The translations under genes and the position numbers were made by a program. A model generated the notes under the pieces. That model was not told where the DNA came from. It did not search any database and was given only the letters and a program-made list of their open reading frames with translations. 64,000 nucleotides of DNA from Methylibium sp. (GTDB lineage Bacteria; Pseudomonadota; Gammaproteobacteria; Burkholderiales; Burkholderiaceae_C), in NCBI RefSeq assembly GCF_013817345.1, contig NZ_JACDCW010000001.1:1-64000 (forward strand). The letters run 5' to 3'. Positions 59,919 to 63,983 of the stretch are shown here, in pieces; within the stretch, counting starts at the first letter, position 1, and every line of letters begins with the position of its first letter.

Positions 59919-61037
59919 CTAGCCGCGCCGCGCCTTCACCGCCCCGCTCAACACCTCCAGCACCGCCAACGAATCATCCCAGCCGATGCAGGCATCGGTG
60001 ATGCTCTGGCCGTAGGCTAGCTGAGTGGGGTCGTCGCGGCCGGCGCTGAACTTCTGGGCACCGGCGTTGAGGTGGCTCTCGACCATCAGGCCGAACACCT
60101 GCCGGCTGCCGCCGGCAATCTGCTGACCGATCTCCTTTGCCACCTCGACCTGTCGCTGGTGTTGCTTGGCGCTGTTGGCATGCGAGCAGTCGACCATCAG
60201 GCTGGCCGGCAGCTTGGCCGCCGTCAGATCGGCGCACGCCGCCGCCACGCTGGCGGCGTCGTAATTCGGCGCCTTGCCGCCGCGCAGGATGACGTGACAG
60301 TCCTTGTTGCCGCGCGTCTCGACGATCGCCACCTGGCCGTTCTTGTGCACCGAAAGGAAGTGGTGCGGACGGCCGGCCGACTGGATCGCATCGGTGGCGA
60401 TGCGGATGTTGCCGTCGGTCCCGTTCTTGAAGCCGATCGGCGCACTCAGGCCCGAAGCCAGCTCGCGGTGCACCTGGCTCTCGGTGGTGCGCGCGCCAAT
60501 GGCGCCCCAGGAAATGAGGTCGCCGATGTACTGTGGCGAGATCACGTCGAGAAACTCACTGCCGGCCGGCAGGCCCAGGCGGCCGATTTCCATCAGCAAC
60601 TGGCGGGCGATGCGCAGGCCCTCGTCGATGCGAAAGCTTTCGTCGAGGTAAGGGTCGTTGATCAGGCCCTTCCAGCCGACCGTGGTGCGCGGCTTCTCGA
60701 AGTACACGCGCATCACGATCTCCAGCGTGCCGGCATAGCGGTCGCGCTCGGCCTTGAGCTTGCGGGCGTACTCCACGGCGGCCACCGGGTCGTGGATGGA
60801 GCACGGCCCCATCACCACGAGCAGCCGGTCGTCGGTGCCCGCCATGATTTCGCGGATGGCGCGCCGGGTGTTGCCGACCAGCGCCTCGACCGGCGTGCCG
60901 CGCACCGGAAAGAAGCGGATCAGGTGTTCCGGGGGCGGCAGCGGCATGACGTTTTCGATCCGTTCGTCATCGGTCTGGCTGGTCTTGTCGGCGGGCGGGG
61001 CCCAGCCGTCGGGGGCGTTGGTGGACAGGGCATTCAT
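59919..61037 (-). CDS. aroG: 3-deoxy-7-phosphoheptulonate synthase (DAHP synthase, class I)
   Basis: LLVVMGPCSIHDPVAAVEYARKLK...FEKPRTTVGWKGLINDPYLD...SLMVDCSHANSAKQHQRQ. Confidence 0.96.
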   Translation of the reverse strand: MNALSTNAPDGWAPPADKTSQTDDERIENVMPLPPPEHLIRFFPVRGTPVEALVGNTRRAIREIMAGTDDRLLVVMGPCSIHDPVAAVEYARKLKAERDRYAGTLEIVMRVYFEKPRTTVGWKGLINDPYLDESFRIDEGLRIARQLLMEIGRLGLPAGSEFLDVISPQYIGDLISWGAIGARTTESQVHRELASGLSAPIGFKNGTDGNIRIATDAIQSAGRPHHFLSVHKNGQVAIVETRGNKDCHVILRGGKAPNYDAASVAAACADLTAAKLPASLMVDCSHANSAKQHQRQVEVAKEIGQQIAGGSRQVFGLMVESHLNAGAQKFSAGRDDPTQLAYGQSITDACIGWDDSLAVLEVLSGAVKARRG

Positions 61038-61084
61038 CGGGATCTCCTGGCGACGAGTCGGGAACGGGGTCAAACGCAAAGACG

Positions 61085-61117
61085 AAAAAAAACCGCCGAG
61101 GGACAGGCCCGGCGGTT
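61085..61117 (-). terminator. Intrinsic terminator in aroG leader (attenuator)
   Basis: Minus strand AACCGCCGGGCCTGTCCCTCGGCGGTTTTTTTTCG: strong GC stem followed by a U-run, between the leader ORF and aroG. Confidence 0.85.
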
Positions 61118-61141
61118 GGGGATTCGGCAGCGCTTTCTTGC

Positions 61142-61216
61142 TTAGGCGCTGGCCTCTCCTCCGCCAGAGCGGTGCGAGAACCAGAAATACGCAAAAAAGA
61201 AGGTGCTGCGGAGCAT
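61142..61216 (-). CDS. Candidate aromatic-amino-acid leader peptide for aroG attenuation (24 aa)
   Basis: Minus strand ATGCTCCGCAGCACCTTCTTTTTTGCGTATTTCTGGTTCTCGCACCGCTCTGGCGGAGGAGAGGCCAGCGCCTAA = MLRSTFFFAYFWFSHRSGGGEASA*; FFFAYFWF run directly before a terminator hairpin. Confidence 0.85.
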   Translation of the reverse strand: MLRSTFFFAYFWFSHRSGGGEASA

Positions 61217-61260
61217 GGGCGCGAATGTAGCACGGGCGCATCCGCTGACCCTGAGGCGCC

Positions 61261-62466
61261 TCAACAGGCCTTGGCGCCGAAGCCCTCGTGTTCGAGCCGC
61301 GCGATCAGCGCCGCCACATGGGCCGCGTTTCGGGTCTGCAGCACCAGTTCGACTTCCACGTTTTGAGCGGCCAGGCTGGTGAAGGCGCGCTGATGATGCA
61401 CCTCTTCGATGTTGGCGCCCGCTTCGGCCACAAGCGCCGTGATTCTTGCCAGGACTCCCGGCGAATCGCGCGCGTCGACGCGGATGCGGGTCAGCCGCCC
61501 CGCCCGCACCATCCCGCGCTCGATGATCGCCGCCAGCAACAGCGGATCGATGTTGCCGCCGCACAGCACCAGCCCGACCCGTCTGCCGGCGTAGCGCTGC
61601 GGCTCCTTCAGCAGTGCCGCCAGACCGGCGGCGCCGGCGCCTTCGACGAGCGTCTTCTCGATCTCGAGCAGCATGACGATGGCCTGCTCGATGTCGCCCT
61701 CTTCGACCAGCACCAGATCGTCCACCAAGTTGCGCACGAGCTCGCGGGTGATGTGCCCCGGCTCGCCCACCGCAATGCCTTCGGCGATCGAATTCCTGCC
61801 CTGCGCGTGAGCAGTGCCCTTGATCAGATTGAACATTGCCGGATAGCGGGCCGTCTGCACGCCGATCACCTCGAGGCGCGGCTTCATTGCGCGGGTGACC
61901 GTGGCGATGCCGGAAACCAGCCCGCCGCCGCCGACAGCGACCACCAGCGTGTCCAGGTCGGGCTGCGCACGCAGCATCTCCAGGCCGATGGTGCCCTGGC
62001 CGGCGATGACGAGCGGGTCGTCGAAGGGATGCACGAAGGCCAGTCCTTGCGCCTCGCCCAGGCGCAGCGCATGGGCGCGCGCTTCGTCGAAGCCGTCGCC
62101 GTGCAGCAGCACCTCCGCGCCGAAGCCGCGTGTGCGCTCGACTTTCACCGCCGGTGTGGCCAGCGGCATCACGATCACCACCCGCAGGCCCAGACGTTGC
62201 GCGTGATGGGCGACCCCCTGGGCATGGTTGCCGGCCGAGGCGGTGATCACTCCGGTCAGCGGTGCCCCGCCGGCGCCGCGCTCGGCCACCAGAGCCAGCA
62301 GCTTGTTGAGTGCGCCCCGCTCCTTGAAGGAGGCGGTGAACTGCAGGTTCTCGAACTTCAGGAAGACATGCGCGCCGGTGATCTGCGAAAGCGTCTTCGA
62401 CTCGACGCAAGGCGTTTCCAGCACATGCCCTGCCAACCGCTCCGCAGCGGCCTGCACGTCAGCCAA
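61261..62466 (-). CDS. ilvA: Threonine ammonia-lyase (catabolic/biosynthetic threonine dehydratase with ACT domain)
   Basis: VFLKFENLQFTASFKERGALNKLLAL...VITASAGNHAQGVAHHAQRLG (PLP site); C-terminal ACT-like region. Confidence 0.92.
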   Translation of the reverse strand: MADVQAAAERLAGHVLETPCVESKTLSQITGAHVFLKFENLQFTASFKERGALNKLLALVAERGAGGAPLTGVITASAGNHAQGVAHHAQRLGLRVVIVMPLATPAVKVERTRGFGAEVLLHGDGFDEARAHALRLGEAQGLAFVHPFDDPLVIAGQGTIGLEMLRAQPDLDTLVVAVGGGGLVSGIATVTRAMKPRLEVIGVQTARYPAMFNLIKGTAHAQGRNSIAEGIAVGEPGHITRELVRNLVDDLVLVEEGDIEQAIVMLLEIEKTLVEGAGAAGLAALLKEPQRYAGRRVGLVLCGGNIDPLLLAAIIERGMVRAGRLTRIRVDARDSPGVLARITALVAEAGANIEEVHHQRAFTSLAAQNVEVELVLQTRNAAHVAALIARLEHEGFGAKAC

Positions 62467-62519
62467 GCCGACTGAAGCCAGCGCGGCGGCGCTGGCCGGG
62501 GCGGGCTCCCCGCCAAGGC

Positions 62520-63983
62520 TCAGGCGGTGCCCCCGACGGTCAGCCCGTCGATGCGCAACGTGGGCTGGCCCACGCCGACCGGCACGCTCTGGCCTTCCTT
62601 GCCGCAGGTGCCGATGCCGGTGTCGAGCGCCAGGTCGTTGCCGATCATCTTCACGCGGGTGAGCGAATCAGGGCCGTTGCCGATGATGGTGGCGCCCTTC
62701 ACCGGGTACTGAATCTTCCCGTTCTCGACCCAGAACGCCTCGCTCGCCGAGAACACGAACTTGCCGCTGGTGATGTCGACCTGGCCGCCGCCGAAGTTGG
62801 TGGCGTACAGGCCCTTTTTCATCGAGGCAACGATCTCTTCCTTCGACTTGTCGCCGCCCAGCATGTAGGTGTTGGTCATGCGCGGCATCGGCACATGGGC
62901 ATAGCTCTCGCGGCGGCCGTTGCCGGTCGGGGCAACCTTCATCAGCCGGGCGTTCATCGAGTCCTGGATGTAGCCCTTGAGGATGCCGTCCTCGATCAGC
63001 ACGTTGCGCTGGCTCGGGTTGCCCTCGTCATCGACGTTGAGCGAGCCGCGCCGGTCGGGGATGGTGCCGTCGTCGAGCACCGTCACGCCCTTGGCGGCCA
63101 CGCGCTGACCGACCCGCCCGGCAAAGGCGCTCGAGCCCTTGCGGTTGAAGTCGCCTTCCAGGCCGTGGCCGATGGCCTCGTGCAGCAGGATGCCGGGCCA
63201 GCCGGGGCCGAGCACCACCGTCATCTCGCCGGCCGGCGCCGGGCGGCTCTCCAGGTTGGTGAGCGCCGCGTTGACGGCCTGGTCCACGTAGCCGGCGATC
63301 ACGTCGTCGTGGAAGTAACCCAGCCCGAAACGCCCGCCGCCGCCGCCGGAACCCATTTCGCGCCGGCCGTCCTGTTCGGCGATGACGGTGACCGACAGGC
63401 GCACCAGCGGCCGCACGTCGGCGGCAATCGTGCCGTCGGCGCGCGCGACCAGCACCACGTCGTATTCGCCGGCGAGCCCCGCCATGACCTGCTTGATGCG
63501 CGGATCCTTGGCGCGCGCCATCTTCTCCATGCGTTCGAGCAGGGCAACCTTCTGCGTGCTGTCGAGCGTGGCGATCGGGTCCATCGGCGCGTACAGCACG
63601 CGGCTGGACGCCAGCCTGCGGGCGGGGCCGACCTTGACTCGCTTGCTGGCGCCGCTGGCGGCGATGCTGCGCACCGTGCGCGCGGCATCGAGCAGTGCGG
63701 CCTCGGAGATGTCGTCGCTGTAGGCGAACGCGGTCTTCTCGCCAGCCACGGCGCGCACGCCCACGCCCTGGTCGATGCCGAAACTGCCGCTCTTGACGAT
63801 GCCTTCTTCCAGGCTCCAGCCCTCGCTGCGCGTGTACTGGAAGTAAAGGTCAGCGTCGTCGATGCGGTGCTCGCCGATCACGCGCAGCGCGCCGGCCAGC
63901 TTGGCTTCGTCGAGGCCGAAGGGCTCGAGCAGGAGTTGCCGGGCGATGGCCAAGCGTTCGATGGTGGGTTCGCGTGAAATCAT
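62520..63983 (-). CDS. tldD: Metalloprotease TldD
   Basis: YFQYTRSEGWSLEEGIVKSGSFGIDQGVGVRAVAGEKTAFAYSDDIS...LHEAIGHGLEGDFNRKGSSAFAGRVGQRVA. Confidence 0.96.
   Translation of the reverse strand: MISREPTIERLAIARQLLLEPFGLDEAKLAGALRVIGEHRIDDADLYFQYTRSEGWSLEEGIVKSGSFGIDQGVGVRAVAGEKTAFAYSDDISEAALLDAARTVRSIAASGASKRVKVGPARRLASSRVLYAPMDPIATLDSTQKVALLERMEKMARAKDPRIKQVMAGLAGEYDVVLVARADGTIAADVRPLVRLSVTVIAEQDGRREMGSGGGGGRFGLGYFHDDVIAGYVDQAVNAALTNLESRPAPAGEMTVVLGPGWPGILLHEAIGHGLEGDFNRKGSSAFAGRVGQRVAAKGVTVLDDGTIPDRRGSLNVDDEGNPSQRNVLIEDGILKGYIQDSMNARLMKVAPTGNGRRESYAHVPMPRMTNTYMLGGDKSKEEIVASMKKGLYATNFGGGQVDITSGKFVFSASEAFWVENGKIQYPVKGATIIGNGPDSLTRVKMIGNDLALDTGIGTCGKEGQSVPVGVGQPTLRIDGLTVGGTA

Follow-up and report, generated by a model that had tools for sequence, protein, structure and literature searches.

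Organization of the leader-aroG region

The analyzed stretch of Methylibium sp. DNA (64,000 nt, hereafter the window) carries on its minus strand the aroG gene, preceded by a short ORF rich in aromatic codons and by an intrinsic terminator that is located between this ORF and aroG. The features of this region are as follows.

61224 to 61232, minus strand: putative extended -10 element TGC TACATT (TGCTACATT), with its 3' end 7 nt before the leader ATG
61142 to 61216, minus strand: leader peptide ORF of 24 codons, MLRSTFFFAYFWFSHRSGGGEASA, with the stop codon TAA at 61144-61142; homologous leaders at 102 loci
61178 to 61201, minus strand: aromatic block TTC TTT TTT GCG TAT TTC TGG TTC (FFFAYFWF), the putative sensor codons
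61176 to 61180, minus strand: segment 1, TTCTC (Phe-Ser codons), predicted to form an anti-antiterminator with GAGAG of segment 2
61161 to 61167, minus strand: segment 2, CTGGCGG, antiterminator 5' arm; its GGCGG (61165-61161) repeats the terminator 3' arm
61153 to 61158, minus strand: GAGAGG, common to the 1:2 helix and the inner antiterminator (covariation analysis, folding)
61109 to 61115, minus strand: segment 3, CCGCCGG, both the terminator 5' arm and the antiterminator 3' arm (covariation)
61091 to 61117, minus strand: G+C-rich stem-loop of the intrinsic terminator, AACCGCCGGGCCTGTCCCTCGGCGGTT, segments 3:4 (folding, covariation, terminator scan)
61085 to 61092, minus strand: T8 tract of the terminator (sequence, terminator scan)
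61048 to 61043, minus strand: aroG Shine-Dalgarno sequence AGGAGA
59919 to 61037, minus strand: aroG, DAHP synthase of 372 aa, start codon ATG at 61037 (Pfam, NCBIfam)

The first-pass annotation had described a 24-codon leader with five Phe, one Tyr, and one Trp codon, followed by a hairpin and U-run ahead of aroG. Both were recovered, the leader at 61216-61142 of the minus strand with these seven codons lying within a block of eight, and the hairpin with its stem at 61117-61091 and its T8 tract reaching 61085, upstream of the aroG start at 61037. The attenuated RNA is predicted to end in the T8 tract at ~61085 and to be about 132 nt long. Terminator-like sites were enriched around the leader (three in 60900-61500 vs 0.5 expected from shuffled controls). 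The ORF listing that starts at 61241 is a mechanical upstream extension of the aroG frame through the leader region.

The AroG protein (P0001) matched Pfam DAHP_synth_1 (1.3e-94) and the NCBIfam aroFGH equivalog and is a type I DAHP synthase. Its own genome, which is about 97% complete, contains one AroG-type gene, the sole DAHP synthase found, and no class II DAHP synthase turned up when the same assembly was searched. A second gene of the DAHP_synth_1 family, located beside pyrG, was considered as a further DAHP synthase and rejected as kdsA-like. A single enzyme that feeds all three end products would have reason to be controlled through all three aromatic codons.

Aromatic codons and ribosome position in 102 leaders

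Scanning genome contigs for AroG yielded 80 named loci, mostly from Comamonadaceae and other Burkholderiales; further loci were taken from 200 genomes of the order, followed by 60 upstream stretches from distant families. Of the first 110 homologue loci, 95 gave an aromatic leader ORF and a downstream terminator in an automatic scan (one of the 95, L059, is doubtful), and a clear aromatic leader with terminator was present in 10 of the 60 stretches from distant families. The aromatic codons and the hairpin, whose joint conservation the first-pass annotation had made one of its touchstones, are thus conserved together in relatives. Counts of leaders given below as x/102 refer to the 102 sequences in which both arms were present.

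Phe codons occurred in all 102 leaders, whereas Trp codons were present in 76 and absent from 26. All three aromatic amino acids, which the first-pass annotation had emphasized, were encoded together in 74. In some lineages (L103, L104, L106 and L096, L097, L107-L110), the leaders contained Phe and Tyr but no Trp codons, or nearly only Phe codons, so the amino acids that are sensed may differ by lineage.

To locate a stalled ribosome, its leading edge was set 12 nt downstream of the first A-site base, a value assumed from general knowledge of ribosome footprints. With this setting, the edge of the stalled ribosome fell short of GGCGG by a median of 2 nt; in 88/102 leaders it lay either at this motif or before it. 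A ribosome at the stop codon covered GGCGG in only 76/102 leaders, the window included, and never reached the terminator.

RNA folding, which had been proposed as a check of the attenuator, gave a clear difference between these states. When the ribosome was placed at the last aromatic codon and segment 4 was not yet transcribed, the antiterminator of the window formed with P=0.99 (-28.8 kcal/mol). Without a ribosome, its probability was 0.05 and the 1:2 helix formed, and the complete free RNA of the window folded into the terminator. Under the stalled ribosome, the antiterminator exceeded P=0.5 in 102/102 leaders, a result that follows in part from the choice of GGCGG and CCGCC as anchors. When folding was taken to equilibrium with the stalled ribosome in place, the terminator still won in 96/102 leaders. 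Antitermination must therefore be kinetic and dependent on timing.

The codons at which stalling would free the antiterminator in the window encode YFWFS, so that Tyr, Phe, Trp, and Phe all occupy such positions, and Phe, Tyr, and Trp are found together among these codons in 55/102 leaders. This distribution bears on whether the attenuator, although real, responds chiefly to a single amino acid, probably Phe, and makes little use of the Tyr and Trp codons. The presence of Phe in every leader and of Trp in only 76 would fit such a reading, as would the aroR-aroF leader of Corynebacterium glutamicum, which encodes Phe-Tyr-Phe and, as far as the review describes it, responds to Phe and not to Tyr availability (Neshat et al. 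2014, reviewed in PMC11802643). Since all three amino acids are represented among the effective stall codons of the window and of more than half of the leaders, we regard sensing of mainly one amino acid as possible but rather unlikely.

Sequence evidence for the antiterminator and terminator

The antiterminator pairing of GGCGG with CCGCC, first suggested from the sequence of the window, is borne out by conservation and by compensatory change between the two arms. In 96/102 leaders, GGCGG followed the aromatic codons and preceded the stop codon, compared to 12.7 expected from dinucleotide shuffles. It occurred in all three reading frames (59, 37, and 6 leaders), where it contributes to the peptide as GGRE, PAEER, or RRR. 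This constancy of the nucleotides over three frames argues that GGCGG is kept as RNA.

The base 5' of GGCGG and the base 3' of CCGCC were C/G in 59 leaders and T/A in 14, with a C/A mismatch in 5 and a T/G wobble in 6. The association of CGGCGG with CCGCCG and of TGGCGG with CCGCCA was significant (Fisher p=9e-8, a value that ignores shared ancestry). Covariation was further evaluated in 59 diverse leaders aligned with MAFFT, without adjustment of the alignment to the structure. The antiterminator scored 0.126 with 31 double-change cells, whereas slid controls reached at most 0.052 and 13, and 12 double changes from CG to UA occurred at a single antiterminator pair. Pairing in the terminator reached 97.6%, and one of its pairs (156-171, GC in 40 sequences and AU in 18) showed 18 double changes. 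The covariation of segments 2 and 3, together with folding under a stalled ribosome, indicates that antiterminator and terminator are mutually exclusive and have one arm in common.

The 1:2 helix TTCTC:GAGAG was 81% paired in relatives, and its covariation score of 0.307 was a modest excess over the 0.273 of the nearest slide. Codon usage lends independent support to this helix: Phe was encoded by TTC in 51/63 cases where it follows Trp, compared to 126/389 elsewhere, where TTT prevailed (263/389; Fisher p=4e-13). The helix is not universal, because the antiterminator was favored without a ribosome in 50/102 relatives, whereas the window favored 1:2.

The comparison of leaders also speaks to an arrest peptide of the TnaC kind, in which the nascent chain would sense a free aromatic amino acid rather than codon starvation. 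The leader is rich in aromatic residues, and such uORFs are known (TnaC, PMC8429421). However, its sequence is not conserved beyond the aromatic content, F, Y, and W differ in spacing and order, and relatives use different frames for the C-terminal part, a change that would be incompatible with an arrest peptide. Moreover, stalling by free ligand would presumably induce synthesis under plenty. We therefore consider an arrest peptide highly improbable.

Association of the element with aroG

In the region 61261-63983 of the window, a threonine ammonia-lyase gene lies between tldD and the aroG leader; many relatives have tldD without ilvA. The gene 5' of aroG in relatives is usually tldD or something else, and ilvA was found at only four loci. 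Leader and terminator accompany aroG despite this variation in the upstream gene, which assigns the element to aroG.

A covariance model of the element found one strong match in its own genome, the window element itself (E 1e-22). The five other matches in this genome all had E 0.24 or weaker, and one of them was the opposite strand of the same terminator. Among 200 Burkholderiales genomes, the model gave 46 matches at E<1e-10, and each of the 46 was followed on its own strand by an aroG match at a distance of 4-144 nt. It is hardly credible that the hairpin terminates the threonine ammonia-lyase gene, whose stop codon at 61261 is only ~45 nt before the leader, and that the aromatic ORF arose by chance in T-rich sequence, given that leader and terminator remain with aroG where tldD is upstream, that all strong model matches adjoin aroG, and that GGCGG and the aromatic block are conserved jointly.

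The putative attenuator is conserved across much of the Burkholderiales. Outside this order, the covariance model found the element before aroG in two genomes of one family (L220 and L221, f63). A leader-aroG pair is also present in Solimonas (L048), likewise outside Burkholderiales, and the 76% identity of its AroG to that of the window suggests joint horizontal transfer of gene and attenuator. No leader was found in the Polynucleobacter-like genomes (L024, L031, L035, L036, L085, L086), where aroG starts some tens of bases after tldD, or at the aroG copies in Cupriavidus records.

The covariance model also matched similar aromatic leaders at two loci of one other Burkholderiales family, L218 (G117:C20:48230-48373; MVTFSVVYNVYFYWYRSSGGAKGC) and L219 (G192:C50:51626-51774; MITFSAVFNAYFYWYRSSRRLQGASLD). 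These leaders carry their own GCCGCC..GGCGGC terminator and precede not aroG but a ~204-aa protein without a convincing Pfam or NCBIfam match.

A predicted leaderless start

A TANNNT motif ending 4-10 nt before the leader ATG was present in 79/102 sequences, compared to 6.8 in shuffles and 1-3 at control offsets. The best -10-like site was located 6, 7, or 8 nt before the ATG in 77/102, and the base just 5' of the ATG was C in 79% of the 102 sequences. No Shine-Dalgarno sequence precedes the leader ORF in the window, and an SD-like tetramer was found in only 3/102 leaders. With the -10 box 7 nt before the ATG and no Shine-Dalgarno sequence, the A of the leader ATG is the predicted transcription start site, and the leader mRNA is predicted to be leaderless. 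The promoter looks like one of the extended -10 type. A scan for consensus sigma-70 promoters did not list this site, because the scan demanded a -35 match.

DISCUSSION

Taken together, the anatomy of the region, its conservation, the covariation of its arms, the ribosome footprint geometry, and RNA folding support the reading that aroG is very probably controlled by a ribosome-mediated transcription attenuator of the trp type. Nearly every core feature of such an attenuator that can be tested on sequence is present, and the 1:2 helix is a candidate for the remaining one. The -10 box with its predicted leaderless start, the competing TTCTC:GAGAG helix, and the lineages with only Phe and Tyr codons were absent from the first-pass annotation.

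We infer the start site, the stalling itself, the termination, and the identity of the effectors, and propose the following course of events. Transcription would begin at the A of the leader ATG, and ribosomes would translate the leaderless mRNA behind RNA polymerase. When charged Phe, Tyr, and Trp tRNAs are plentiful, the ribosome would arrive at the stop codon and cover segment 2 (GGCGG..GAGAGG). The 3:4 terminator could then form, and transcription would end at ~61085. If any of the three tRNAs is uncharged, the ribosome would stall on the Tyr-Phe-Trp-Phe codons, covering segment 1 with its edge just short of GGCGG. Pairing of segments 2 and 3 would then precede the synthesis of segment 4, and the polymerase would continue into aroG. 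In the absence of a ribosome, the sequence of the window would favor the 1:2 helix and thus termination. The leader appears to act as an OR-gate with the three charged tRNAs as its inputs.

The pheA, trp, and pheST attenuators of Escherichia coli and other gammaproteobacteria share the 1:2 / 2:3 / 3:4 architecture and carry codons for their end products. They differ from the present element in responding to a single amino acid and in controlling terminal-branch or tRNA-synthetase genes, not a DAHP synthase. Putative attenuators have likewise been predicted before a DAHP synthase operon, aroF-tyrA of Vibrio, a different lineage (Merino database, as cited in PMC1173090). In C. glutamicum, aroR-aroF similarly combines a leader peptide with aromatic codons, ribosome stalling, and transcription of a DAHP synthase gene; it is actinobacterial, its account in the review mentions no Trp, and the likeness drawn here is one of description (PMC11802643). 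The uORFC-13-1 motif before aroF of Acholeplasma, with 24 representatives from this genus and environmental sequences, is also a predicted uORF adjoining a terminator, again ahead of a DAHP synthase gene, and has at least one Phe codon (PMC8632094), but it differs from the Burkholderiales element in taxon and structure. Attenuators of DAHP synthase genes are thus already known, and what appears special here is the combination of all three aromatic codons with the predicted leaderless start.

No Rfam family matched the window at its curated score. A full-length but weak match to RF02868 (ncS037; 15.8 bits vs 112 bits, E 1.9) was rejected and is taken as chance, because ncS37 is treated as an independent sRNA of chromosome 2 of Burkholderia cenocepacia (PMC5688073) and none of 20 relatives matched this family at E<=0.5. 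The same paper has supplementary tables with 82 short 5'UTRs of this species. In the main text of the openly readable papers searched, we found precedents from other lineages but no description of the betaproteobacterial leader, and an earlier prediction is possible.

The closest parallel for the predicted leaderless start is trpL of Sinorhizobium meliloti, where the 5' end of the RNA is reported to coincide with the ATG of the leader ORF and attenuation is ribosome-mediated (PMC7298713). This leader differs in sensing Trp only and in controlling trpE(G), and its sRNA (rnTrpL) and peptide (peTrpL) also act in trans. By analogy, the ~132-nt leaderless attenuated RNA and/or the FFFAYFWF peptide might also act in trans on other genes, which we regard as doubtful. 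If true, the element would be more than a cis switch, namely a Burkholderiales-wide signal of aromatic starvation.

The predicted leaderless start would make the element a compact system in which the coupling of a leaderless leader peptide to RNA polymerase can be tested, and the element would offer a direct handle for engineering aromatic production. Control of the TyrR/TrpR type is known mainly from gammaproteobacteria. For the Burkholderiales, the element is predicted to be a clade-wide, sequence-defined regulator of the entry step of the shikimate pathway.
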